From assembly GCF_003846185.1 (NCBI RefSeq), contig NZ_ML123034.1, forward strand, positions 752,890 to 816,889: a DNA stretch of 64,000 nucleotides, given 5' to 3'. Numbering within the stretch: position 1 is the first letter of the stretch; each line of letters begins with the position of its first letter. This document shows positions 42,447 to 58,089 of this stretch, piece by piece. This DNA is from Streptomyces sp. ADI96-02 (GTDB taxonomy: Bacteria > Actinomycetota > Actinomycetes > Streptomycetales > Streptomycetaceae). A program made the position numbers and the translations under genes. The notes under the pieces are model-generated. The model was not told the DNA's origin and ran no database searches. It was given only the letters and a program-made list of their open reading frames with translations.

Positions 42447-42658
42447 AGTCAGACTCAGGGCTCAGGGCGTCTCCTCCCGCCGGTGGATTCTCGGCGGTCC
42501 GCGTGTTCCTAAGATCGTTCCGGAGAGCCGCCCGCGTCACCGGCGTGGCCGTGCTCGTCGTGAAGGCCGACGAGCAGGAGCACGGCGGCGATTGACAGGT
42601 CGTCACAGAACGGGTGCGCGCGTGGAGACGTGCGCCGCGCGGCCGACGGGGGGCAGAA

Positions 42659-45600
42659 ATGATCAGTGCGCACGCCACACTCGCGCAGAACGGGCCGATG
42701 GACGACATGACGCTGACCCACCTCCTGCTGGACGCGGCTGCCGAGGCGCCCGAGCAGGTCATCGTCCACGTCCGCGGCGACGGCGACGGCGACGGCGACG
42801 GCGGAGAACTGGTCGTCACATTCCGTGAGTTGCTGGCCGCGTCGCTGCGCGTGGCCGGCGGATTCCGGGCTGCGGGCGTCGCGCCGGGCACCCGCGTGCC
42901 GCTGCTCGCCGACCGCAGCGAGGACTTCCAGCCGATGTTCTGGGGCGCGCTGGCGGCCGGGCTCGTCCCCGTACCGCTGGCTCCGGACGCCCGCCGGCTC
43001 CTGCCCGTGTGGGAGCACCTGGACCGGCCGCCCGTGGTGGTGGACGCGGCCTGCGCGTCGCTGCTGGCCGAACTCCCCGACGAGGTGCGGGCGCTGAGCC
43101 TGGACGTCCTGCGGGAGGGACCGGCGCTTTGGGAACCGGTCGGCGTGGGGGGCGAGGAGGTCGCCTTCCTCCAGTTCTCCTCGGGCAGTACGGGCGCGCC
43201 GAAGGGCGTCGAGGTGACGCACGCGGGCGTGCTGGCCAATCTGGAGCAGATACGGGCGGCGTCGGCGCTGGGCGCGGACGACGTACTGGTCAGCTGGATG
43301 CCGTACTTCCACGACATGGGGCTGATCGGTACGCATCTCGCGCCGCTGGCCGCCCGCGCCAAGCAGGTGAAGATCGGGCCGCTGTCGTTCGCCAAGCGGC
43401 CCCGGGCGTGGTTCGAGGTGGCGCACCGGCACCGGGCGACCGTGCTCTCCGCCGCCAACTTCGCCCTGGCGCTGGCCGTGCGGCGCGTCCCCGGCGAGGC
43501 GATGGCGGGGCTGGACCTCTCCAGCGTCCGGCTGGTGCTGGTCGGGGCCGAGCCTATCGCGCCGGCCGTGTGGCGGGCGTTCGCGTGCCGGACGCGGGCG
43601 GCGGGCCTGCCCCCGACGGCCCTCCAGCCGGTGTACGGGCTGGCCGAGGCGACGCTGGCGGTGACCTTCCCGCCGTTGGGCGAGGTGGCCGAGCCGCTGG
43701 CCCTGGACCGGGCCGCGCTGAGCCGGGGGCGGGCCGTGGACCGCGCGCCGGGCGACGGCACGGTGGAGCTGATGGACGTCGGCCGCCCGGTGGCGGACAC
43801 CATCGTGCGGATCGTCGACGACGCGGGCCGCCCGCTCGGCGACCGCCGGGTCGGGCACATCGCGGTCCGCGGTCCGCAGCTCGCCCGCGGTTACCACGGT
43901 CTCGCCGACGCGAGCGCGGACGCCTTCGCGGACGGCTGGCTGCGCACCGGGGACCTCGGCTTCCTGCGGGACGGGCGGCTGTGCGTGACCGGTCGCCACA
44001 AGGACGTGCTGTTCCTGAACGGCCGCACGTTCCACGCCCCGGACACGGAGGAGGTGGCGGCGGCCACGCCGGGGCTGCCCGCCGGCGCTCCGGCGGTGTT
44101 CGGGTCCACCGATCCGGTCACCGGTTCGGAACGCGTGGTGGTCCTGATCCCGTGGGCCCGGCCGCCGAAGGACGCGGGCGAGGTTCTGGACCGGGTCGCC
44201 GTCCGGGTCCGCGAGGCCCTGGCCCACGACGACGTGCGGGTGCTGGCGCTGCCGCCGGGCGCGTTCCCCCGTACGACCAGCGGAAAGCTGCAACGGCAGC
44301 TGTTGCGGGCTCGTTTCGAGGCGGATGAACTCCCGGGCGGCGGCAACGCCGTCTCCGCCGCCGCCTTCTCCTCCCAGGGGCCCGTCGGCGCTCGTCCGGG
44401 GCCCGCCGTCCCGGCTGCGGCGGTGGCCGGAGGTGGGTCGCGGGCTCCCCGTTCACGCAAGGGCGCGGAACGGGCCGTACGGGAGGTGTGGGGCCGTGTC
44501 CTGAACCTGCCCGGCGAGGCCGTCGGACGGAACGACCGGTTCGCCGGGCTGGGCGGGACGTCGCTGAAGGCGATGGAGGTGCTCGCGGCGCTGGAGGAGG
44601 TCTTCTCGACCACCCTTCCGCCGGCGGTGATGCGCGACCACGACACGGTCGCCGCGCTCGCGGAACACCTCCTCAGCGCCGCCGGGCCCGCGCTGCCGCA
44701 GGCGGAGGCGGAGGCGGTGCCACCGTCTCGGGCTCAGGGCGAGCCTGATGCTCCGACGTACGCGGCGGCGGGCGGCCGGAGGAGCGCGGCGCCGACCGCC
44801 GTCATCGGCATGGCCTGTCGCTTTCCCGGCGCCGCGACGCCCGACGCCTTCTGGGACCTGCTCGTCGACGGGCACGACGCCGTCACGCCCGTGCCTCCCG
44901 GGCGCTGGGAACCTGAGACGGGGGCGGGGGCGACGTCGGGGGCAGCCGATACCGGGGCGGCGGCCGATGCCAGGGGCGATGCCGATGCTGGGGCTGGGGC
45001 CGGGGCCGGGGCGGGATCGGGAACTGCGGCCTCGGCGGAGGACAGGCGTGGGACGGCACGCTGGGGAGCGTTCCTGGACGATCCGGCCGCTTTCGACGCC
45101 GCGTACTTCGGGATCGGCGGGGACGAGGCCCGCGCACTCGACCCGCAGGCCCGGCTCTTCCTCGAACTCGCCCACGAGGCCCTGGAACGCGCGGGCTACG
45201 CGGGCCCGCGCCGACGCGACCGCCGGATCGGCGTCTTCGCCGCCGTCGGGGAGAGCGGCTACCGGGAGGTTCTGGACCGGGCGGCGGAGGCCGGTGCGCC
45301 GCTCTCCGCCGCCGCGCTCACCGGAAACCTGCCCAACCTGGTCGCCGCCCGCGTAGCGCAGTGCCTCGATCTCGACGGCCCCGCGCTGGCGGTCGACACC
45401 GCCTGCTCCTCGGGCCTCGTGGCGCTGCATCTGGCCCGGCGCAGTCTCCTGGACGGAGAGTGCGACCTCGCCGTGGTGGGCGGAGTCAACCTCCACCTCA
45501 CCTCCACCGGCCACCGCCTCCTGGAAGCGGCGCAGGCCCTGTCCCCGACCGGGCGCAGCCGCGCCTTCAGCGGCGCGGCCGACGGTTTCGTCCCCGGCGA

Positions 45601-48600
45601 GGGCGGTGCGGCCCTGGTGCTGACGCGTCTCGACGCGGCCCGGCTCGCCGACGATCCCGTACTCGCGGTGGTCCGGGGAACGGCCGTCAACAACGACGGC
45701 AGGTCGCTCAGCCTCATGGCGCCCAACCCGCTGCGCCAGCGCGAGGTCATCACCCGGGCGTACGAGGAGTCCGGGGTCGACCCGGCCTCCGTGAGCTATG
45801 TGGAGGCGCACGGGACGGGCACCCCCGTCGGCGACCCGATCGAACTGCGGTCCCTGGCCCACGCGTTCCCCGTGCCGTCGGGCGGAGAGCCGCGCCTGCT
45901 CGGTTCGGTGAAGACCAACTTCGGCCACCTGCTGAACGCGGCGGCCCTGCCTGCACTGGTCAAGGTCGTCCTGGCGCTGGGCCACCGCAGGCTGCCCGCC
46001 TCGCTGCACCATCTGCCGGCCTCCCCGGCCCTCGGCCCGGTCGGCTTCTCCGTGGTGACCGAGACGCGCGAGTGGACGTCGTCCGGACCTCTCGTAGCCG
46101 GGATCAACGCCTTCGGATTCGGCGGCACCAACGCCCATGCCATCCTCGAACAGGCCCCGCCCCCGTCATCCACCGCCCCGCGCGACGACGCCGGCCCCCA
46201 CCTGCTGACGCTGTCGGCCCGCAGCGCGGCGGGGCTGCGGGTGGCCGCCGCGAACCTCGCGGACCGCCTGCGGAGTCGTCCGCCACTGAGCGAGGGCGAC
46301 GTCTGCCGGACCGCGAGCACGTCCCGGGACGACGGCCCGTACCGGCTGGCCGTCGTCGCCGACGGCGATCTACGGGAGCGGCTGGCGGCGCTCACGGCCG
46401 CTGCGCCGCAGCCGTCGCAGCCGCAGCCGCAGCCGTACGGAATGTCCGGCGGACCGGGTCGGTCCGGTGCGTTCACGCCGGGCGAGGTCCGTTCCCGGCC
46501 GCGGGTGGTCCTGCTGTTCCCGGGACAGGGGACCCCGCGCCTCGGCCGCGAAGGCGGTCTGTACCGCACGGCGCCGATGTTCCGCGAAACCCTGGACGAG
46601 GCGTCCGCGCTCGTCGGCCCGCTGCACGGCCGGAGCCTGCTGGACTGGTGTCTGGACCCGGACCCAACCCCGGAGCCGGCCTCGGAGTCGGAAACGGAAG
46701 CCGGACCGGACGCGGAACCGGACGCGGAACCGGAGCGCCGGGCGTTGACGACGGAGGTGGCGCAGCCGCTGCTCGTCGCGACCGGTGTGGCCCTCGCCCG
46801 TCAGATGCGGAGCTGGGGCGTGGAGCCCGACGCGGTCGCCGGGCACAGCGTCGGCGAGATCGCCGCCGCTTGCGCGGCGGGGATGCTGAGCCTGTCGGAG
46901 GCCATGCGCTTCGCAGCCGAACGCGGTCGTCTCATGGGAGCGTTCACGGAGCCCGGCGCGATGCTCGCGGTACGCGGCGGCGACGAAGAGGCGGCGGCCT
47001 TGGTGGCCGCCGCGGGCGGCGCACTGGCCGTGGCCGCGTACAACGGTCCGGGCCTGCTCGTCCTGTCGGGTGCGGTGGCGGCCGTCGAGGAGGCGGCCCG
47101 TGCCTTGGACGCGCGGGGCGTCGCCGTACGCCGGCTGCGGGTCTCCCGGGCCTTCCACTCGCCGCTCATGGGGCCGATCGCCGATCCCCTCTCCGACGCG
47201 GCCCGTGGCCTCGCCCCGCGCGCCGGGGTCCTTCCGCTGCTGAGCACGGTGACCGCCGAGTGGCAGCCGGTGCTGGACCCGGAGTACCTGCGGGACCACG
47301 CCCTGCGGCCGGTGCTGTTCGGCGCGGCGGTGGAGCGGCTGATCCGGGAGGGGTACGACACGTTCGTCGAGGTCGGGCGCGGCGCGAGTCTGGCCGGGGC
47401 GGTGCGCGCGGCGGCCCGGCGCGGTGCGCCGGACCGCTCGGGGCCCCCGGACGACAGGACGGACCGCTTCGGCCCGTCGGACGACACGACGGACCACTTC
47501 GAACCTGCGGACGGCAGGGCGGCGGACGGCCGGGGCGGTGCCGAGGAGGCCGCCGCCCGCGTGACGGTGGTGCCCGCCCTGCCGGACCACGGCACGGCCG
47601 GCGGAGCGCGGCGGCCGGGCGGTGAGGGGCGCGGGGAGCTGCTGGCCACCCTCGGCCGCCTCTGGACTCTCGGGACACCGCTGGACCGTACGGTGCTCGA
47701 TGCCGGTCGCCGCCATGTTCCGCTGCCGCCCTACCCCTTCCAGCGCAGCCGGTACTGGCCGCTGCCGCCGTCCCGCCCGCTGCTCCACCGGGTCGGCTGG
47801 CAGGAGTCCGGCACGCCCCCGACTTGCGCCGGAGTCGGCTCGGTGCTCCTGACAGGGCCCGACGCCGCAGCCGTCGACTCGCTCGGCGAACAACTCACGG
47901 CCGAGGGCGTCCGCCTGCGACCGAAGGACGGCACTCCGCCCGACGCCGTGGTCCTGGTGGCCGGGCCGGCTCCCGCCCTCACGGACGCGGACGCCCTCGA
48001 CCGGGCGCAGGACGCCGCGCTGTCGGCCTTCCGGACGGCGCTCGCGCTGCTCGACGACAGCGGCGCGCACCGGCTGCTGGTGCTGACCGAGGACGTCCAC
48101 GTCACGGGTGCGGCGACGGAACGGCCGCGCCCGGTCCACGCCGTCCTGCACGGACTCCTCATGGCCCTGTCGCAGGAGACGCCGGGCCTGGCGGCGACCT
48201 CACTCGACCTCTGTTCGGCGGACACGGCGGCGGACCGGCTGACGGCCGTGCTCTTCGAACTGCGCGAGGAACTGCCGGCAGGACTGCGGGTCGACCGGAC
48301 CGCCGAGCCCGTGACCGCCGTCGCCTGGCGGGCGGGACGCCGCCTGCTGCGGACCGTCACACCCCTCGCCGTCACACCACTCGCCGTCACACCGCTCACG
48401 GGCACACCGCATGCCGGTGCGCCGCATGCCCTCACCCCGCTCACCGGCACGACGCCGTCCCCGCTGCCACCGGACGGCAGCTTCCTCATCACCGGAGGCG
48501 GGGGCGGGATCGGGGCCGCGCTCGCCCGGGAACTCGCCACGCTCGGCCGCCCGACGCTCGTCCTCGCCGGGCGATCACCCCGACCGCCCGCCGGGCTGAT

Positions 48601-51600
48601 CGAGGAGCTGACCGCGCTCGGCGCCACGGTCGACTACCGCGCGGCCGACGTATCGGTGGAACAGGACGTCGACGCTCTGCTCGCCGGACTGCCCGGCCTG
48701 GACGCGGTCTTCCACGCGGCCGGGGTGGTACGTCCGGGAACCCTGCGGAACAAGACCGCCGAGGAGATGACGCGGGTCCTCGCCGCCAAGACGCGCGGCA
48801 GTCTGCTGCTCTCCCTGGCCCTGCGGCGACACGGGCTGAGCCCGGACGTGTGCGTGGCGTTCTCCTCGGTCTCCGCCGTCCTGCCCGGCCTGGCGGGCGC
48901 GCTGGGCGACTACGCGGCGGCGAACGCCTTCCTGGACGCCTTCGCCGCCTCGGAGCGCCGGGCCGGCAGGCCCTGGCAGTCCGTGAACCTCGCCGCGGTC
49001 GCCGGAACCGGGCTGGCGGCCGGACTGCGTACGGACTCGGGGCCGGGGACGGGGACGGGAAGGGGAAGGGGAAGCGGTGCGCGGACGTATTCGGCACCGG
49101 TTTCCGTCTCCGCCTCCTCCGCCGCGTCGCGTGCGGGGAGCCGGCCCCTGACGACCGCCGACGCGCTGGCGGCGCTGCGTACGGCGTCCGGAATCGACGC
49201 GGCCCACCTGATGATCGCCGACCTGACGCCGCCGCCCTCGCCGGTGACGTCGGTCGGGGCCGTTCCCGATCCGGCCGGAACCTCGGCGGTCGTCGAGGCC
49301 CCCGTACCCGTAACGGACCGAACGCCTTCCGGAATCGAGGCCACGAGACCGGCCTCGGCCGGACCGGGCCACGCCCCGCTGCTGCGGCGTCTGATCGCCG
49401 CTGCGCTGCGCCTGCCGACCGCCGCGGACGTCAGCGAGGACGAGCCGTTCCTGTCCCTGGGGCTGGACTCACTCGCCGCCGTCGACCTCGTCAAACAGCT
49501 CGAACACGAGCTGGACGCCTCGCTGCCCGCCACCCTCTTCTTCGAGTACCGGACCGTACGCGAACTGGCGGCACACCTGGACGCGTCGCTCAGTACGGGC
49601 AGGAACACCGGGGCGAGCACGGGCGCGGGCACGAACACCGGGGCGAGCACCGGCGCGGGCGCGGGCACGAACACCGGCGCGAGCACGGGCACGGGCACGG
49701 GCACGGGCGCGGTCGTCGCGGACGGCACGCCGTTCGCGCTCACCCCGCTGCAACTGGCCTTCCACGCCGGGGGCCGCCTCCACCCGGACATACCGGCGCG
49801 CGGTTACGTACGCCAGAGCGTCAGCGGCCCGTTGGACGAAGGTCTGCTGGCGCGGGCGCTCGCCGCGCTCGCGGAACGGCACCCCATGGTGCGCCTCCGC
49901 ATCACCACAGCTCCGGCCGAGGACGGCAGGACGGTCCCGGTCCAGTACGTCGCTCCGTCAGCGCCCCTGTCCGACTGGTACGAGGTCCGCGCGTGCCCGG
50001 AGGGCGTCGAGAAGCTGGAAACCGAGCTGGCCAACCGGCCCTTCGACCTCTCCGCCGAGCCGCCGCTGCGGGCGGTACTGGCGCGGGAGAACCCCGACCT
50101 GGCCCATCTGGTGCTCGTGCTGCACCACGCGGCCGGTGACGGATACAGCCTCAACGTCCTGGGCTCGGAACTCTGGTCGCTCTACACCGACCTCGCCCTG
50201 GACCGCGAGCCCTCCCTGCCCGCGCCCGGCGCCGACTTCGCGCGGTACACGGCCGTGGCCGCCGAGGAGCGTTCGTCCGCCGCCTTCGCCGCCGACGAGC
50301 GCCACTGGGCCGAGCGGCTGGCCTCCCGGCACGAAGTCCTGCGGTTGCCCTACGACGGCGATCCGGCCGACGCTCCGTCAGCTCCGCTTCTCACCCATCC
50401 GAGCGCGCTCGCACCGGAGCCGGCCGCCGCGCTGCGCGAGCTGGCCGCCGCACACGGCGTGAGCCTGTTCCATCTCGTGCTCGCCGTCCACGTGCGCTGC
50501 CTGGCGCGGTGGAGCGGGCAGCGCGAGATCGCGGTGAACATCGCCCGCGCCCGGCGCGAGACCCGCCTGCCCGGCCTGGACCGGCTCGTCGGCCCGCTCG
50601 CGGACACGCTGCCCCTGCTGTGCTCGGCCGATCCGGACGAGCCGGCTCCGGCGCTGGCGGAGCGGTTGCGGGACATCTGGCTGGAGACCGAGCGCCACGC
50701 CACACCCGCCGGCCTCGACCTGGTACGGCTCCTGCCCGGGGGCGACGGGCCGCGCACGGTGAGCCCGGCGGGCTTCAGCTTCGCCCGCTTCCCGGCCGCC
50801 CGCGACGCGCGGTGCCCGGTGACCGTACGGGCCACGGCGGCCGGAACCGCCACTGCGGCGACCCGGCTGAGCCTGCTGTGCTGGGAGGACGGGACGACGC
50901 TGCGCTTCTCCTGGAACTTCCCCGTACGGCTGTTCGCCCCGGCCACGGTGGCGCGGCTGGCCCGCGACTTCGAGGCCGAGCTGATCGCGCTCGCCGGGCG
51001 GCGGACCGCGCAGTCCCAGCAGTCCACGCAGTCCCAGCAGTCCACGCAGGCCACACGGACCGTGCAGACCGCACGGATCGCGCGGACCGCACCGGCCCCG
51101 GGGTCCGAGGCGGTCCCGGTGTCTCGCCGGGACACCGGATCCGCCACGATCGTGGACCGGCTCCTCGCCCGGTTCCGTACGGTCCCGGACGCGGTCGCCG
51201 TCGACACCGGCGCCTCGACGTTGACGTACGCGCAGCTCGACCGGGCCTCACGCGCGCTCGCCGACCGGCTCGTCGGTCGCGGCGTCCGTCCCGGAAGCCT
51301 GGTCGCGCTGCTCACCGCGCCGGGCGCCGACACCGTGACAGCGGTCGTCGCCGTGATGCGGGCGGGCGCCGGCTGGGTCCCGCTGGACGCCGACCACCCG
51401 ACGGCCCGTCTGGCGGACCAGATCGCACGGTCCGGCGTCCGTACGGTGGTCTGCCACGCGGCCACCCGCGCGGCGGCCGACGCTCTTGACGGCGTGGTGC
51501 TGGTACCGCTCGACGAGGCGTCACCCGCCGCCCCGGCCGCACCGAACGGGCGCGTCGACGCCGACACCACGGCGTACGTGATCTTCACCTCCGGCTCCAC

Positions 51601-54600
51601 GGGCCGGCCCAAGGCCGTGCCGATCACCTACCGGTCGATGGAGAACTACCTCGACTGGGCCGTCCGCACCTTCGGGTACGACCGGGACGACCGCCTGGCA
51701 CAGACGGCGTCGATCTGCTTCGACGCGTCGGTCCGGCAACTGCTGGCCCCGCTGCTCGTCGGGGCGACGGTGGTGGCGGTCCCCCGGGGTCTGGTCCGCG
51801 ATCCCGACCTGCTGCTGACGCACGTGGAGCGCACCCGGATCACGGTGTGGAGCTCCGTCCCCACCCTCTGGGAGCAGTTGCTGACGGCGGCCGAGGAACG
51901 GGTACGGCGCGGCCTTCCACGACCGGACCTCTCGGCCCTGCGGTGGATCCACGTCGGCGGCGAAGCCCTCCCGCCGACGCATGTCCGCCGCTGGTACGAC
52001 CTGTTCGGCGGCGGTCAGCGCGTCGCGAACCTGTACGGGCCGACCGAGTCGACCATCAACGCCACCTGCCACATCATCGACGCCCGGCCCGGCGACCACG
52101 TGCACCGCCTGCCGATCGGCCGGCCGGTCGCCGGCGCCGAGGTGCGGGTGGCCGGCCCGGACGGTGAACCTCGGAAGCCGGGCGAGGCGGGTGAACTGCT
52201 CATCGCGGGAGTGGGACTGACCGCCGGTTATCTGGGCGAACCGGCGCTCACCGAAGCCGCGTTCACCCGGCAGGCAGGGCGGCGCTGGTACCGCAGCGGC
52301 GACCTGGTCCGGTCGGCGGCGGACGGCACGCTGGAATTCCTCGGGCGGCTGGACGACCAGGTGAAGGTGCGCGGCCACCGGGTCGAGCCGGGCGAGGTCG
52401 AGGCGGTCCTCCAGACGCATCCGGACATCGCGCGGGCCGTCGTGCTGGTACGGGACGGCCGACTCGTCGCGTTCGTCACGGCCAGGCCGGGGACGAAGGC
52501 GGCCGACGCCGTCGCGCTGCGGGTGCACCTGGCGCGGACCCTGCCGCCGTACATGCTTCCGGCCCGCATCACCCGTGTCGACGAACTGCCGCTCACGGGG
52601 ACGGGCAAGGTCGACCGCCAACGCCTGCTCGCGACGACGGCGACGCCTACGGCTACGGCTACGGCTACGGACACGGACACGGACACGGGTACGGCTACCG
52701 CCGCCGCTGTCGCTTCGGCCGACGCTGCGAACGGAAACGGCGTCCCGGACCGCACCTCCCGCCGGACGCCGCCGAGGACCGCGACCGAGGTGCGGCTGGC
52801 CGGTATCTGGTCGGCGCTGCTCCAGGTCGGCGAGGTCTGCCGCGAGGACGACTTCTTCGCCCTGGGCGGCGACTCGCTGCTCGTGCTGGAGGTGTTCGCC
52901 CGGCTGGCTGAGCGGGGCGGCCCGCTGCCCCGGCCGACCGTCGTCTACCGTCACCGCACGCTCGCGGCCCTCGCCGCCGAGGTGGACGCGGCGGCCCGTA
53001 CCGAGGTCGCGAACGCGGACACGCCCGCGCGGGCAGCGGCGACCACGAGCGGCGCGCCGACGACGGGCGGCGGCGAGCACCACCCCGGCCCGACGCCCTA
53101 CCCGCTCACCCCCGGCCAGCGCGGCTTCCTCCTCGCCGAGGCGATCGCACCGGGCGCGGGTTCGTCCTGGCTGACACGGCTGCGCCTGCGCGGACCGCTG
53201 GACCCCGGCCGCTTCCAGGCCGCGGTCGACACGCTCGTCGCCCGGCACGCCATGCTGCGTACGGTCTTTCCAGCCGGGGCCCGCCCGGCCGTCCAGCAGG
53301 AGCTTCCGGCCTCGCTGCGCCTGCCGGTCGACTTCGAGACGCTCGCCGGGCCGCACCAGGTGGAGGAGCGGATCACCGCCGAGCGGGCGCGCCGCTTCGA
53401 ACTCTGGGCCTGGCCGCTGCTGCGGCTGCGCCTCCTGACGATCGCGCCGGACGAGCACGTCCTGGTGGTGCACGCCCACCACATCATCGGCGACGGCTAC
53501 AGCGCCGCCCTCCTGGTGCGGGAGCTGATGGCCGTGTACGACGCGGCGACCCGCTCCGAACGTGCCGAACTTCCCGTGCCGCGCAGTACGTTCCGCGACT
53601 ACGCCGTACATCTCGCGGGGCGCGCGGAGAACGCGGACGGCACGGAGGGTCCGATCGGCACGGAGGGCACGGACGGTACGGAGGGCACGGACGGTACGGA
53701 GGGCACGGACGGCACGGAGGGCACGGACGGCCCCGAGGGCCAGGAGGCGGCGGCCCGGTGGGCTTGGCTCAGCGCCCCCTACCACCGCCCTGAACTGCGG
53801 GCCGAGGGCACGGACGGCGTGGCGCGGACCGGTGACGCGGTCTCCTCGGACGACCGGATGCGGACCGGCGTACGCCACGCGCCCTTCCACTCCCGCGGGT
53901 TCGACGTCGGGACCGGACAGGTGGACGCGCTGCGGCGGCTGGCGTCCGATGCCGGGGCCACGCTGTACGCGCCGCTGCTCACCGCCTACTACCGGGCGCT
54001 GGCGGCGAGGACGGGTCGGGCGGATCTGGTCCTGGGGCTCGCCGTGAGCGGCCGGGACCATCCGCTGCCGGACGTGAACCGGGTCTTCGGCCCGTTCGCC
54101 ACGGCCGTGCCCGTACGGCCGGCCGGTCCGGGCTCCGGCCGCCCCGCCGGCGCGGACTTCGGTGACGACCTGCGGCGGATGGCCGCCGAGGCCGTCGCGG
54201 CGCGTACGCACGACGGCGCGGTGCCGAGTCTTCCCAGCGGCCTGCCGCTGACCTCGCAGTTCTTCTTCACGTTCCTGGACTTCTCCGCGCTGGGGCCGGA
54301 GAGCGGACAGACGCTGACCGTGACGCGGGACGACGACGCCGACAGCGAGTTCACGCCGCCTGCGATCGGTACGGACGTGTTCCTGGCCGCGCGCCTGGAC
54401 GCGGGCCGCCTGCGGGTCACCGTGCGGGCCTCGGCCGGGGCGCTCTCGGCGCGGGAGCTGGCCGACCTCGCGGACGCGGTGCGCGACGGCCTGGCGGAGG
54501 CGACCGCTCGCCCGGCGGAGGACCGACTCACCCTGGCGCCGGGCGCCTTGGAGCAGGAGTCCGCCGCACGGCGGGCGGGAGAGGTGGACGCGGCGCTCGT

Positions 54601-55717
54601 CGGATATCTGCCGTCCCCGGCCCACCTGGCCCGCCTGGCCGGTGTGCCCGCCACGGCGCTGCCCCGCGAGGAGCTGCGGAGCCTCCTCTTCCCCGACGGC
54701 CGGCCGAGGCTCCTCGAAACGCTGAGCACCCCGCTCGGCCGCTCCGGTTTCGTCGGAGTCCCGCTCTTCGCGGACGAGCTCGCGGCGGGTGAGTCCCTGC
54801 TCGGGCACACCGTGCGGGGCGTGGAACTCGCTTCGTCCCTCGGCGCGCGGTCCGTGTCGCTCGCCGGCATGATCCCGTCCCTGACCGGCTACGGCTTCGA
54901 TGTCGCCCGCGCCCTCGGCGGCGAAGCGCCGGCGGTGACCGTCACGACCGGCCACGGGACGACGGTGGTGTCGGTCGTCAAGACCGTGCACGCCGCGCTG
55001 GCCGCCGCCGGTCAGGATCTGGGCGACCTCACGGTCGCGTTCGTGGGGCTCGGCTCGATCGGCTCCTCGTCGCTGGAACTGCTGCTGAGCAGGGCCGCGC
55101 GCCCGCCGGCCCGTCTGCTGCTCTGCGACGTCCCGGGCAGCGGCCCGCGTCTGAAGGAGCTGACGGTGAGCCTGCGCGAACGTGTGGCGGTCGGCCCGGT
55201 GGAGGCGGTGGAGTCCGCCGGCGGTCTTCCGCCGGAGGTGTACGGCGCGGACCTGATCGTCACCGCGGTCAGCGGCGGCGGCGCTCTGCTCGACATCGAC
55301 CGCCTGCGGCCGGGGACCACCGTGGTCGACGACTCCTTCCCGCACTGCTTCGACACGGGGCGTGCGATCGAACGGATGCGGGAGAAGCGTGACGTGCTCG
55401 TCGTCGGCGGCGGACTCCTCGACGCCGGCGCGGGCGAACGCCGGGCCGCCGACGGCCTGCCCGCCGCCGCGGCGGCCGGACACCTCGCCCAGCCGTGGCT
55501 TCCCGGCACGATCGCATCCTGCCGGCTGGAATCCCTGCTGCACGCGGCCGGTGCGGGCGCGCCCGCGGTACGCGGCCCGGTCGACGGGCCGACAGGGCTG
55601 GCCCACTGGGCGGCTGCGGAGGCGACCGGCACCCGCGCCGCGCCGCTGCACCTGCTCGGCCACGTCGTCGACACGGACGCGCTCAGGGGGTTCAGCCGCT
55701 TCAGCCGCCGCGGCTGA
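42659..55717 (+). CDS. Hybrid FAAL-PKS-NRPS megasynthase with AAR-like reductase
   Basis: A 4352-aa assembly line. Order: fatty acyl-AMP ligase (~20-560, FSSGSTGAPKGV); ACP1 (S635); KS (~710-1165, C916, H1051, H1090); AT (~1285-1586, S1397 in GHSVG, AFHS at 1499-1501 indicating malonyl-CoA); KR (~1940-2125, S2072/Y2085/N2089, no LDD motif); ACP2 (S2271); condensation domain (~2357-2790, HHAAGDG); adenylation domain (~2830-3330, FTSGSTGRPKAV); PCP (S3406); second condensation domain (~3480-3960, HHIIGDG); C-terminal domain (~3975-4352) aligned with acyl-ACP reductase (TTG at 4096-4098, GLGSIG at 4130-4135, C4288). No TE or SDR-type reductase. The ATG at 42659 follows GGGGGGCAGAA. Likely product: a 3-hydroxyacyl amino acid derivative, perhaps an aldehyde (inference). 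Several simple-sequence insertions occur. Confidence 0.9.
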   Translation: MISAHATLAQNGPMDDMTLTHLLLDAAAEAPEQVIVHVRGDGDGDGDGGELVVTFRELLAASLRVAGGFRAAGVAPGTRVPLLADRSEDFQPMFWGALAAGLVPVPLAPDARRLLPVWEHLDRPPVVVDAACASLLAELPDEVRALSLDVLREGPALWEPVGVGGEEVAFLQFSSGSTGAPKGVEVTHAGVLANLEQIRAASALGADDVLVSWMPYFHDMGLIGTHLAPLAARAKQVKIGPLSFAKRPRAWFEVAHRHRATVLSAANFALALAVRRVPGEAMAGLDLSSVRLVLVGAEPIAPAVWRAFACRTRAAGLPPTALQPVYGLAEATLAVTFPPLGEVAEPLALDRAALSRGRAVDRAPGDGTVELMDVGRPVADTIVRIVDDAGRPLGDRRVGHIAVRGPQLARGYHGLADASADAFADGWLRTGDLGFLRDGRLCVTGRHKDVLFLNGRTFHAPDTEEVAAATPGLPAGAPAVFGSTDPVTGSERVVVLIPWARPPKDAGEVLDRVAVRVREALAHDDVRVLALPPGAFPRTTSGKLQRQLLRARFEADELPGGGNAVSAAAFSSQGPVGARPGPAVPAAAVAGGGSRAPRSRKGAERAVREVWGRVLNLPGEAVGRNDRFAGLGGTSLKAMEVLAALEEVFSTTLPPAVMRDHDTVAALAEHLLSAAGPALPQAEAEAVPPSRAQGEPDAPTYAAAGGRRSAAPTAVIGMACRFPGAATPDAFWDLLVDGHDAVTPVPPGRWEPETGAGATSGAADTGAAADARGDADAGAGAGAGAGSGTAASAEDRRGTARWGAFLDDPAAFDAAYFGIGGDEARALDPQARLFLELAHEALERAGYAGPRRRDRRIGVFAAVGESGYREVLDRAAEAGAPLSAAALTGNLPNLVAARVAQCLDLDGPALAVDTACSSGLVALHLARRSLLDGECDLAVVGGVNLHLTSTGHRLLEAAQALSPTGRSRAFSGAADGFVPGEGGAALVLTRLDAARLADDPVLAVVRGTAVNNDGRSLSLMAPNPLRQREVITRAYEESGVDPASVSYVEAHGTGTPVGDPIELRSLAHAFPVPSGGEPRLLGSVKTNFGHLLNAAALPALVKVVLALGHRRLPASLHHLPASPALGPVGFSVVTETREWTSSGPLVAGINAFGFGGTNAHAILEQAPPPSSTAPRDDAGPHLLTLSARSAAGLRVAAANLADRLRSRPPLSEGDVCRTASTSRDDGPYRLAVVADGDLRERLAALTAAAPQPSQPQPQPYGMSGGPGRSGAFTPGEVRSRPRVVLLFPGQGTPRLGREGGLYRTAPMFRETLDEASALVGPLHGRSLLDWCLDPDPTPEPASESETEAGPDAEPDAEPERRALTTEVAQPLLVATGVALARQMRSWGVEPDAVAGHSVGEIAAACAAGMLSLSEAMRFAAERGRLMGAFTEPGAMLAVRGGDEEAAALVAAAGGALAVAAYNGPGLLVLSGAVAAVEEAARALDARGVAVRRLRVSRAFHSPLMGPIADPLSDAARGLAPRAGVLPLLSTVTAEWQPVLDPEYLRDHALRPVLFGAAVERLIREGYDTFVEVGRGASLAGAVRAAARRGAPDRSGPPDDRTDRFGPSDDTTDHFEPADGRAADGRGGAEEAAARVTVVPALPDHGTAGGARRPGGEGRGELLATLGRLWTLGTPLDRTVLDAGRRHVPLPPYPFQRSRYWPLPPSRPLLHRVGWQESGTPPTCAGVGSVLLTGPDAAAVDSLGEQLTAEGVRLRPKDGTPPDAVVLVAGPAPALTDADALDRAQDAALSAFRTALALLDDSGAHRLLVLTEDVHVTGAATERPRPVHAVLHGLLMALSQETPGLAATSLDLCSADTAADRLTAVLFELREELPAGLRVDRTAEPVTAVAWRAGRRLLRTVTPLAVTPLAVTPLTGTPHAGAPHALTPLTGTTPSPLPPDGSFLITGGGGGIGAALARELATLGRPTLVLAGRSPRPPAGLIEELTALGATVDYRAADVSVEQDVDALLAGLPGLDAVFHAAGVVRPGTLRNKTAEEMTRVLAAKTRGSLLLSLALRRHGLSPDVCVAFSSVSAVLPGLAGALGDYAAANAFLDAFAASERRAGRPWQSVNLAAVAGTGLAAGLRTDSGPGTGTGRGRGSGARTYSAPVSVSASSAASRAGSRPLTTADALAALRTASGIDAAHLMIADLTPPPSPVTSVGAVPDPAGTSAVVEAPVPVTDRTPSGIEATRPASAGPGHAPLLRRLIAAALRLPTAADVSEDEPFLSLGLDSLAAVDLVKQLEHELDASLPATLFFEYRTVRELAAHLDASLSTGRNTGASTGAGTNTGASTGAGAGTNTGASTGTGTGTGAVVADGTPFALTPLQLAFHAGGRLHPDIPARGYVRQSVSGPLDEGLLARALAALAERHPMVRLRITTAPAEDGRTVPVQYVAPSAPLSDWYEVRACPEGVEKLETELANRPFDLSAEPPLRAVLARENPDLAHLVLVLHHAAGDGYSLNVLGSELWSLYTDLALDREPSLPAPGADFARYTAVAAEERSSAAFAADERHWAERLASRHEVLRLPYDGDPADAPSAPLLTHPSALAPEPAAALRELAAAHGVSLFHLVLAVHVRCLARWSGQREIAVNIARARRETRLPGLDRLVGPLADTLPLLCSADPDEPAPALAERLRDIWLETERHATPAGLDLVRLLPGGDGPRTVSPAGFSFARFPAARDARCPVTVRATAAGTATAATRLSLLCWEDGTTLRFSWNFPVRLFAPATVARLARDFEAELIALAGRRTAQSQQSTQSQQSTQATRTVQTARIARTAPAPGSEAVPVSRRDTGSATIVDRLLARFRTVPDAVAVDTGASTLTYAQLDRASRALADRLVGRGVRPGSLVALLTAPGADTVTAVVAVMRAGAGWVPLDADHPTARLADQIARSGVRTVVCHAATRAAADALDGVVLVPLDEASPAAPAAPNGRVDADTTAYVIFTSGSTGRPKAVPITYRSMENYLDWAVRTFGYDRDDRLAQTASICFDASVRQLLAPLLVGATVVAVPRGLVRDPDLLLTHVERTRITVWSSVPTLWEQLLTAAEERVRRGLPRPDLSALRWIHVGGEALPPTHVRRWYDLFGGGQRVANLYGPTESTINATCHIIDARPGDHVHRLPIGRPVAGAEVRVAGPDGEPRKPGEAGELLIAGVGLTAGYLGEPALTEAAFTRQAGRRWYRSGDLVRSAADGTLEFLGRLDDQVKVRGHRVEPGEVEAVLQTHPDIARAVVLVRDGRLVAFVTARPGTKAADAVALRVHLARTLPPYMLPARITRVDELPLTGTGKVDRQRLLATTATPTATATATDTDTDTGTATAAAVASADAANGNGVPDRTSRRTPPRTATEVRLAGIWSALLQVGEVCREDDFFALGGDSLLVLEVFARLAERGGPLPRPTVVYRHRTLAALAAEVDAAARTEVANADTPARAAATTSGAPTTGGGEHHPGPTPYPLTPGQRGFLLAEAIAPGAGSSWLTRLRLRGPLDPGRFQAAVDTLVARHAMLRTVFPAGARPAVQQELPASLRLPVDFETLAGPHQVEERITAERARRFELWAWPLLRLRLLTIAPDEHVLVVHAHHIIGDGYSAALLVRELMAVYDAATRSERAELPVPRSTFRDYAVHLAGRAENADGTEGPIGTEGTDGTEGTDGTEGTDGTEGTDGPEGQEAAARWAWLSAPYHRPELRAEGTDGVARTGDAVSSDDRMRTGVRHAPFHSRGFDVGTGQVDALRRLASDAGATLYAPLLTAYYRALAARTGRADLVLGLAVSGRDHPLPDVNRVFGPFATAVPVRPAGPGSGRPAGADFGDDLRRMAAEAVAARTHDGAVPSLPSGLPLTSQFFFTFLDFSALGPESGQTLTVTRDDDADSEFTPPAIGTDVFLAARLDAGRLRVTVRASAGALSARELADLADAVRDGLAEATARPAEDRLTLAPGALEQESAARRAGEVDAALVGYLPSPAHLARLAGVPATALPREELRSLLFPDGRPRLLETLSTPLGRSGFVGVPLFADELAAGESLLGHTVRGVELASSLGARSVSLAGMIPSLTGYGFDVARALGGEAPAVTVTTGHGTTVVSVVKTVHAALAAAGQDLGDLTVAFVGLGSIGSSSLELLLSRAARPPARLLLCDVPGSGPRLKELTVSLRERVAVGPVEAVESAGGLPPEVYGADLIVTAVSGGGALLDIDRLRPGTTVVDDSFPHCFDTGRAIERMREKRDVLVVGGGLLDAGAGERRAADGLPAAAAAGHLAQPWLPGTIASCRLESLLHAAGAGAPAVRGPVDGPTGLAHWAAAEATGTRAAPLHLLGHVVDTDALRGFSRFSRRG
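49585..49722 (+). repeat. Thr/Gly/Ala linker repeat inside the megasynthase
   Basis: Codons for N-T-G-A-S-T-G-A-G-type units repeat between ACP2 and the first condensation domain. It is in frame and probably a flexible linker. The DNA units are near-identical (ACGAACACCGG, GCGAGCAC). Confidence 0.85.
53640..53735 (+). repeat. 18-bp repeat coding TEGTDG inside condensation domain 2
   Basis: About five units encoding T-E-G-T-D-G are inserted inside the second condensation domain, after residues RAEN. The DNA repeats nearly exactly. It falls after the HHxxxDG motif and before the GFDVGTGQV helix, a loop position. Confidence 0.85.
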
Positions 55718-55725
55718 CTCCGCAA

Positions 55726-55759
55726 CCCCGGCCCTCGGCGCGTGCGTCTGCGGCCGGGG
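55726..55759. terminator. Hairpin after the megasynthase gene
   Basis: CCCCGGCC (55726-55733) pairs with GGCCGGGG (55752-55759) across an 18-nt loop, between the converging megasynthase and methyltransferase genes. Confidence 0.45.
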
Positions 55760-55776
55760 CTCGCCCCGGTGGGAAT

Positions 55777-56625
55777 TCAGCCTCCCGGGCGAGTCCCGCC
55801 GGCGTCGCACAGCCGGGCCGTCGCGACGTGCACGGTGAACGCGCAGGGCACGCGCCCGTCCGGCGCCGTCAGGTGGCGCACCTCGGTGGAGAACGCCTCG
55901 CGCAGCCGGTCGACCCGTTCCGCGTCCAGCGGCCCGAGGTCGTAGAGGCCCGACAGGGCGGCCCACACCTGCCCGACCGGACCGCTCAGATCGATCGGAA
56001 CGGTCTCCCACTCCACCGGGGCGAATCCCGCCGGGCCGAGGATCTCGTCGAGCCCTTCGCGATGCCGCGTCCTCCGGTCCCCCAGCGGCGGGATGCGCTG
56101 GGCGGCGGGCGCCTCCGCGATCGTGCGCCGCAGCAGCCGGACGAAGAGTTCGTACGCCCCTTCGCCCACGGCCCCGCCTCCCAGCACGCACGCCAGCAGG
56201 CCCCCGGGCGACAGCACCCGGGCCGTCTCGGCCGCCACGTGGTCGATCTCGCTCATCACCATCAGCGCCATATGGGAGACACAGGCGTCGAAACTGCCGT
56301 CGGCGAAGGGGAGTTGCTGAGCCCGGCCCTCCACCAGGGCCGCCCCGGCCAGACCCGGCCGGCACCGTGCCCAGGCCAGGGACCGCGCGGAGAGGTCGAG
56401 GCCGGCGAGCCGCCGTACGCCCGCCCGGGCCAGGAGCTCCAGCACCAGGCCGTCTCCGCAGCCGAGGTCCAGCACGCGGGTGCTCCCCGCCACGCGATCG
56501 CTCAGGATCTCGTAGCTGGACCGGCCGTCCGGGGCGCGCCCCCGGCCGAACGCCTCGGCGGTCACCGCCGGGTGCTCGGCGTGGAAGGCGCGCAGGAACT
56601 CTTCCTGGGATGCGGTGGTCGTCAC
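55777..56625 (-). CDS. SAM-dependent class I methyltransferase
   Basis: A 282-aa methyltransferase. Motif I is STRVLDLGCGDGLVLELLARAG, shown in part as VLDLGCGDGLVLELL, followed by the acidic GLDLSARSLAWAR loop, LPFADGSFDACVSHMALM (motif II/III) and ARVLSPGGLLACVLGG. The GTG at 56625 is used. It converges on the megasynthase, with a 59-bp gap. Such genes often methylate products of a neighbouring pathway, but the opposite direction and lack of other tailoring genes leave the link open. The substrate is unknown; the sequence gives no N-, O- or C-specific hint. Confidence 0.88.
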   Translation of the reverse strand: MTTTASQEEFLRAFHAEHPAVTAEAFGRGRAPDGRSSYEILSDRVAGSTRVLDLGCGDGLVLELLARAGVRRLAGLDLSARSLAWARCRPGLAGAALVEGRAQQLPFADGSFDACVSHMALMVMSEIDHVAAETARVLSPGGLLACVLGGGAVGEGAYELFVRLLRRTIAEAPAAQRIPPLGDRRTRHREGLDEILGPAGFAPVEWETVPIDLSGPVGQVWAALSGLYDLGPLDAERVDRLREAFSTEVRHLTAPDGRVPCAFTVHVATARLCDAGGTRPGG

Positions 56626-56666
56626 GTCGCCAACCTAACGCCCGACTCACCCGGTCGGCGGACCCG

Positions 56667-57695
56667 TCAGACCGCGGACCGCTCACCGGCCGGGCGGCGG
56701 CGCAGCGCGGTCTGCTGGACGGCCGGCGGGTCGTACGCCATGTCGAGGGCTCCGACGTCGGTGCCGGGGGGCACGACGGCGTCGATCCGGTCGAGGATCT
56801 CGTCGCTCAGGACGGTGCCGCTCCCGGCGAGGAGGTCGTCGAGATGGGCCATGGTGCGGGGCCCGATGATGGCGGAGGTGACGCCGGGGTGGCTGATCGC
56901 GAAGGCCGTCGCCAGGTGTGTCAGCGGCATCCCGGCCTCCGCGGCGAGCAGGATGAGCTGCTCGACGGCGTCGAGGCGGTGTTCGTCGCTCAGGTGCCGG
57001 AAGCCGAATCCGGCCCGGTGGGTGTCGTTCTGCCCGCCCTTGCGGTACCGCCCGGTGAGCAGGCCGCCCGCGAGCGGGCTCCAGACCAGGGCGCCCATCC
57101 CGTAACGCTCGCACACGGGCAGGACCTCGCGTTCGATGCCCCGGTTGAGGATCGAGTACGGCGGCTGCTCGGTGCGGAAGCGCTCCAGGCCGCGCCGTTC
57201 GGCGGCCCACTGGGCCTCGACGATGTCCGACGCGGGAACGCTGGAGGCGCCGATGGCCCGGACCTTGCCCGCGCGCACCAGGTCGGTGAGGGCCGAAAGG
57301 GTCTCCTCGACGTCGGTCTCCGGATCGGGGCGGTGGATCTGGTAGAGGTCGACGTGGTCGGTGCCGAGCCGGCGCAGCGAGTCGTCGAGCGCGCGCACCA
57401 GCCAGCGGCGCGAGCTGCCCTGCTGGTTGGGGTCGTCGCCCATGGGCAGACGCGCCTTGGTGGCGAGCACGACGTTGTCGCGGCGGCCCCTGAGCGCCTT
57501 GCCGACGATCTCCTCGGACTCCCCCCGGCCGTACATGTCGGCGGTGTCGACGAAGTTGACCCCGGCGTCCAGCGCCTTGTGGATGATGCGGACCGCGTCG
57601 TCGTGGTCGGGGTTGCCCAGGGCTCCGAACATCATCGCGCCCAGGCAGTAGGGGCTGACCTTGATCCCGGTGCGGCCCAGCGTGCGGTACCTCAT
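56667..57695 (-). CDS. Aldo/keto reductase
   Basis: A 342-aa NADPH-dependent aldo/keto reductase. The family motifs are RYRTLGRTGIKVSPYCLGAM, then VDTADMYGRGESEEIVG (catalytic D and Y), VVLATKARL (K) and DLYQIHRPDPETDVEE (H). The C-terminus SAIIGPRTMAHLDDLLAG binds the cofactor. It starts at ATG 57695 after GAGGAG; the ORF is open further upstream as a shadow. It lies 42 bp upstream of the methyltransferase start on the same strand, so they may share a transcript. It is divergent from the secreted protease gene. Confidence 0.9.
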   Translation of the reverse strand: MRYRTLGRTGIKVSPYCLGAMMFGALGNPDHDDAVRIIHKALDAGVNFVDTADMYGRGESEEIVGKALRGRRDNVVLATKARLPMGDDPNQQGSSRRWLVRALDDSLRRLGTDHVDLYQIHRPDPETDVEETLSALTDLVRAGKVRAIGASSVPASDIVEAQWAAERRGLERFRTEQPPYSILNRGIEREVLPVCERYGMGALVWSPLAGGLLTGRYRKGGQNDTHRAGFGFRHLSDEHRLDAVEQLILLAAEAGMPLTHLATAFAISHPGVTSAIIGPRTMAHLDDLLAGSGTVLSDEILDRIDAVVPPGTDVGALDMAYDPPAVQQTALRRRPAGERSAV

Positions 57696-58089
57696 GGTGC
57701 TCCTCGGGGCTCGGGGAGCGCGCCGCGGCGCGGCACGCTCAGGTAACCATGCTGGCCGTCGCACGATCACCCCGCTCGTCGACGGACCGCCGCCGTACGG
57801 AGCCGCAAGCGGAGAGGCCCTGACTGGCGGCGCCCTCGGCCCTCGCCCGCCGTGGTGAACGTACGCGACACCCGGCACCGGCTCACCGGGCCGCACACAC
57901 CCTTGACGCGCTGTCAACTGTGCTGCCGGCAGAGCCGGCCCGCACCTGGGAAAGGCGCACGTACCATCGGTGCGGACTCAGACGTGACGCGAAGCCGGCG
58001 TCACCGCAGTCCTTCCACTCCCCGCGGCGTCCCTCTCCTGGGTACCGCACGCGTAACCCTCACCCAGTCAGAAAGCTCTGTTGTCAACC
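57696..58089. other. Divergent intergenic region before the secreted protease
   Basis: About 394 bp holding both promoters. Inverted repeats seen: TTGAC-GCGCT-GTCAA (57903-57917), and GCCGGC-AGA-GCCGGC just after it (near 57925-57939). No gene is recognised. Confidence 0.5.

Follow-up and report, generated by a model that had tools for sequence, protein, structure and literature searches.

A TAD-family terminal domain behind a condensation domain in a Streptomyces polyketide-peptide megasynthase

How does a modular synthase release its product when it ends in neither a thioesterase nor an NAD_binding_4 reductase? The question is raised by one gene in a 64,000-nucleotide stretch of Streptomyces sp. 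ADI96-02 (contig NZ_ML123034.1; the window in what follows), which encodes a predicted hybrid of polyketide synthase (PKS) and nonribosomal peptide synthetase (NRPS). Pfam and NCBIfam models place its domains in the order ligase of the fatty acyl-AMP ligase (FAAL)-like kind, carrier, ketosynthase (KS), acyltransferase (AT), ketoreductase (KR), carrier, condensation (C1), adenylation (A), peptidyl carrier protein (PCP), and a second condensation domain (C2), followed by 379 residues. An initial annotation had taken these last residues for an acyl-acyl carrier protein reductase (AAR) domain that frees the chain as an aldehyde. On sequence grounds, we assign them instead to the TAD family, as a sister of the carmabin TAD, so that the AAR label is right for the superfamily and wrong for the family. 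Our expansion of TAD as terminal amidation domain is a reading of Protein Data Bank (PDB) entry titles together with the accessible part of PMC10949194. The correction matters because the AAR label would predict a different class of product.

Family of the terminal domain

A Pfam scan at an E value of 0.1 matched no family to the terminal domain, and a thioesterase or NAD_binding_4 reductase was thereby rejected as its identity; Pfam found neither anywhere in the megasynthase, which bears out the initial annotation on this point. Single-sequence fold prediction (pLDDT 37) yielded nothing usable. In sequence and in predicted fold, the domain is significantly similar to the solved carmabin TAD across its whole length. 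Every motif quoted in the initial annotation is present, including the GLGSIG loop and a catalytic-type cysteine, C4288, which aligns both with Cys2238 of the TAD and with the catalytic Cys C294 of AAR. A cysteine occupies the Cys2238 position in 42 of 43 alignment rows, the remaining row having a gap. The GxGSxG loop and an Asp at the end of strand 2 form a predicted NAD(H) site.

The AAR profile search that the initial annotation had proposed as a check came out against it: TIGR04058, the NCBIfam equivalog model for AAR, scored 16.6 bits, far short of its 449.7-bit cut-off. In four trees (36, 54, 49, and 51 rows), a TAD side that includes the window domain was split from a side holding AAR, PigE, and free-standing proteins with support of 100/100. 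AAR, PigE, P0207, and P0218 form long branches, and the position of PigE inside the AAR side shifts between tree builds. Signatures follow the split. The TAD side has [TS][TS]GH, an Asp after strand 2, and DDSxP; the other side has TTGN or TTGS (TSGN in PigE) and DGG or DVA, with Gly/Ala-Arg at the strand-2 position in AAR and the free-standing proteins and His-Arg in PigE. Membership in the AAR family is ruled out by the profile score and the tree position together.

A subtype preceded by a condensation domain

The initial annotation did not mention the C domain that lies between the last PCP and the terminal domain. With the motif SCRLE (CxxE) and this C domain before it, the window domain falls outside the carmabin subtype, which combines CxxS or CxxA with a preceding PCP. 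When 336 proteins carrying the domain, the window protein included, were classified by motif and upstream domain, the 201 CxxE proteins had an upstream C domain in 120 cases and a PCP in none (neither in 10, too little upstream sequence in 71). Among the 108 CxxS or CxxA proteins, 70 had a PCP and none a C domain (7 had neither by the patterns used, and 31 had too little upstream sequence). The motif residue was absent or different in the other 27, and an upstream domain was found in 14 of these (13 PCP, 1 C). Because separate queries and length filters produced the two sets, whose members are related by descent, the counts describe a consistent association and not independent events.

The trees recover the carmabin subtype as a clade of 29 rows (98-100/99) and the window subtype as a clade of 12 rows (97/95 and 97/97), which includes a protein named from a myxobacterial metagenome-assembled genome. 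The latter clade was unresolved in trees that kept the long branches, and two further CxxE proteins, P0213 and, in the trees that contained it, P0207, lay outside it or were unresolved. We suggest that the C-TAD arrangement with CxxE is, as judged from motif and architecture, a new variant of the TAD family.

The arrangement is strongly conserved among 120 listed long relatives out of 371 significant matches (2742-4376 residues, a few marked partial; identity, 69-78%), in which active-site residues are conserved and whose organism-named members among the matches listed are Streptomyces. In all 120, the C-domain motif HHxxxDG precedes the TAD by 250-480 residues, the last PCP signature GGDS[LM] is found upstream of this C2 motif, and the TAD cysteine motif SCRxESL is present. 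The C2 motif is likewise intact in all 17 loci compared, the window included, among which are Couchioplanes and three Herbidospora; one of the 17, L018, has a stop codon within the TAD match. Matches of C2 in the PDB favor C domains (tyrocidine synthetase 3, 4.5e-20) over entry 2xhg (3e-6), which we take to be the epimerization domain of tyrocidine synthetase A, and an epimerization role for C2 was rejected on this basis.

Two other family members carry a docking domain (TubC_N), which precedes C-PCP-TAD in P0293 and a TAD alone in P0304. These layouts suggest TADs that work in trans, and since such TADs occur in proteins without an A domain of their own, an acceptor supplied in trans is plausible for C2.

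Possible release chemistry

We give an even chance to the reading in which this TAD-family domain, with its predicted NAD(H) site and C4288, takes over the finished chain, which then leaves as a primary amide. The FAAL-like domain would load a fatty acid, the PKS module would add one unit and reduce it, and the NRPS module would add one amino acid. After that, C2 may carry out a further elongation with an aminoacyl-PCP that comes from the other protomer or is provided in trans, or it may simply hand the chain over. Acyl transfer would bring the thioester onto C4288, a redox step with NAD(H) would be either a net reduction to the aldehyde or redox neutral, and ammonia would give the terminal amide. 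Amide release is suggested by analogy with the nearest pathways.

Several observations weigh against amide release or the TAD assignment behind it. The top NCBIfam match of the terminal domain is PigE, on the AAR side (39.3 bits; E = 2.5e-10; cut-off, 850), and the scan of that library turned up no TAD model. On the AAR side, the long-branched P0218 has TTGH, the Asp, and DDSFP, so that the TAD signatures are not exclusive. An active-looking C domain stands directly before the window TAD, unlike the PCP-TAD arrangement, and the substrate may consequently not come from the adjacent PCP. The CxxE motif is that of AAR, PigE, and the free-standing relatives, whereas carmabin-type TADs have CxxS or CxxA, and it could signal reductase chemistry. 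In relatives P0274 and P0315 the TAD is followed by an NAD_binding_4 thioester reductase and in P0286 by a thioesterase, which fits poorly with a TAD that alone carries out release in these proteins. To our knowledge, no product of the megasynthase gene has been reported. Finally, although structures of such domains have been solved, the mechanism of terminal amidation had not been studied as of 2024, according to the accessible part of PMC10949194.

The CxxE motif, the PigE match, and the kinship with AAR make aldehyde release the main rival: C4288 and NADH would reduce the thioester in the manner of AAR, as proposed for PtTamH, and the aldehyde would be freed or would cyclize. This part of the initial annotation is possible but not favored; the domain sits on the TAD side of the trees, its TTGH, DDS, and NAD-type signatures are not shared with AAR, and the TIGR04058 score is far below the cut-off, and we regard such a release as a tentative, if serious, alternative. 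The intact C2 motif throughout the long relatives and loci, and the C-type rather than epimerization-type PDB matches, would also suit C2 itself as the releasing enzyme, condensing the chain with a free amine, while the role of the TAD would be limited to supplying or modifying either the nucleophile or the product once released. We consider this improbable, as conservation is equally strong for the cysteine and active-site signatures of the TAD and the cysteine of the solved TAD forms a disulfide with a coenzyme A derivative, according to the PDB entry title. Nothing was found in favor of the terminal domain being a functionless relic, and retention of its active-site residues at the identities given above makes this very improbable.

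Returning to the TAD assignment, a broader proposal may be made, though we find it somewhat doubtful. The C-TAD tandem would be a release device in its own right, derived from a terminal module by loss of the A domain and PCP, in which C2 receives an aminoacyl-carrier from the other protomer or in trans and the CxxE TAD releases the product by NAD(H) chemistry unlike that of the carmabin TAD. It would serve a widespread one-gene lipopeptide pathway in Streptomyces and relatives.

Gene layout, setting, and known systems

The reading frame 42614-55717 (+) is open throughout, and the ATG at 42659 is most plausibly the start. The loading domain is probably of the FAAL type; the best such models scored 396-433 bits, none reaching its own curated cut-off. 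The KR is of the short-chain dehydrogenase/reductase type, and the adenylation code, about DARSIVLIN as read by eye against GrsA positions, gave no confident substrate. An 18-bp tandem repeat (TEGTDG-like) at 53634-53740 within the C2 coding sequence probably accounts for collagen-like matches, and an antisense open frame of 1721 aa (51521-56686, -) overlaps the end of the megasynthase, the sort of frame expected when G+C content is 74%.

Coordinates of the megasynthase gene and its domains in the window
Feature	Position	Strand	Detail
Single megasynthase gene	42659..55717	+	4352 aa from ATG at 42659; 4367 aa from GTG at 42614
Fatty acyl-AMP ligase-like loading domain	42812..44323	+	family matches
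Carrier protein after loading domain	GGTSL at 44552	+
One PKS module: KS (DTACSS), AT, KR	44816..49003	+	left edge approximate
PKS-module carrier protein	49382..49579	+	LGLDSL
NRPS module: C1 and adenylation domain	49820..52609	+	C1 HHAAGDG at 50123
Last PCP, carrier signature	52865..52879	+	GGDSL
C2, between PCP and TAD	53051..54493	+	edges approximate; HHIIGDG at 53477
TAD-family terminal domain	54578..55717	+	TTGH 54944, GLGSIG 55046, DDSFPH 55328, conserved Cys codon 55520-55522

None of the neighbors of the megasynthase in the window, which include GH18, methyltransferase, aldo-keto reductase, and GDSL lipase genes, turned up next to the gene in 11 named loci, for which the sequence outside the megasynthase was limited to the downstream 10 kb. 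The gene of Streptomyces fungicidicus is solitary, with genes for hydrogenase maturation, tellurite resistance, and catalase around it. Across 17 sets of flanks, the window has a single weak pair in common with another set: its aldo-keto reductase frame (56670-57977, -) has a counterpart near the megasynthase in G146 (35% over ~320 residues), a pairing that may be due to chance because the family is common. G007 and G167 have true flanking genes in common, and the pairs they form with G200 consist of shadow frames from the megasynthase. A conserved gene cluster was rejected on the basis of these comparisons and searches. With no conserved cluster found for this gene, work on a single protein could decide between amide and aldehyde release and address the role of the extra C domain.

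The domain turned up in 3 of 41 relatives (the window counted among them), each belonging to the 25 of the same genus; it is thus common in named Streptomyces and yet present in a minority of sampled species. Of 396 genomes of the phylum Actinomycetota, 38 had a match, comprising 4 megasynthases and 34 short frames (281-458 codons), in a survey in which misses are likely because at most four candidates per genome were scored in the listed rows. The short frames, 26 of them L019-L044, are AAR/PigE-like and come from genomes of 0.8-2.8 Mb, with one of 4.2 Mb. Seven placed in the trees carry TTGN or TTGS and the NADPH-type Arg, and one frame tested matched PigE (3e-59) and TIGR04058 (3e-34), both below the cut-offs. 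A free-standing TAD-family protein, annotated as hypothetical, is encoded on Pantoea stewartii plasmid pCN101 (L045:4594-15146), flanked on one side by a MupA-type luciferase-like monooxygenase and on the other by an NRPS with two AMP-binding stretches, a C domain, and two carriers; in P0335, a MupA-type luciferase-like monooxygenase is fused to a TAD.

Searches for the phrase "terminal amidation domain" and for the TAD PDB codes found no relevant paper. A 2025 paper from the Smith laboratory reportedly deals with how a putative terminal amidation domain is structured. A literature search combining AAR, NRPS, and release found such a domain only in PMC9594044 and PMC10949194; the accessible parts of PMC12403116 and PMC10127204 describe none.

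The initial annotation knew of no described example, but structures of the carmabin TAD, a cyanobacterial NRPS domain, were released in February 2025 (PDB 9e4s, 9e4u, 9e4x, 9e50, and 9e56). The accessible part of PMC10949194 describes a terminal amidation enzyme of hectoramide, vatiamide, and carmabin biosynthesis that stands after the PCP and is hypothesized to work by ammonolysis. The domains of HcaD (hectoramide) and VatR (vatiamide) are likewise described as ending an NRPS in place of a thioesterase but, unlike the window domain, directly follow a PCP. Cyanobacterial AAR (6jzu, 6jzy, 6jzz, and 6jzq) is a free enzyme with TTGN and DGG that uses NADPH (title of 6jzy) and forms a separate clade, whereas the window domain is a fused TAD. 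PtTamH (tambjamine) and PigE (prodigiosin) fuse an AAR-type thioester reductase domain to a transaminase; PtTamH is described as having a putative catalytic Cys, and PigE has its Cys in CxxE as in the window but lies on the AAR side of the trees. The carmabin TAD has GCxxS, and its relatives with a recognized upstream domain follow a PCP, whereas the window domain has SCxxE and follows a C domain, and it represents a second TAD subtype, in the common laboratory genus Streptomyces, that combines an AAR-like CxxE with a conserved C domain before it.
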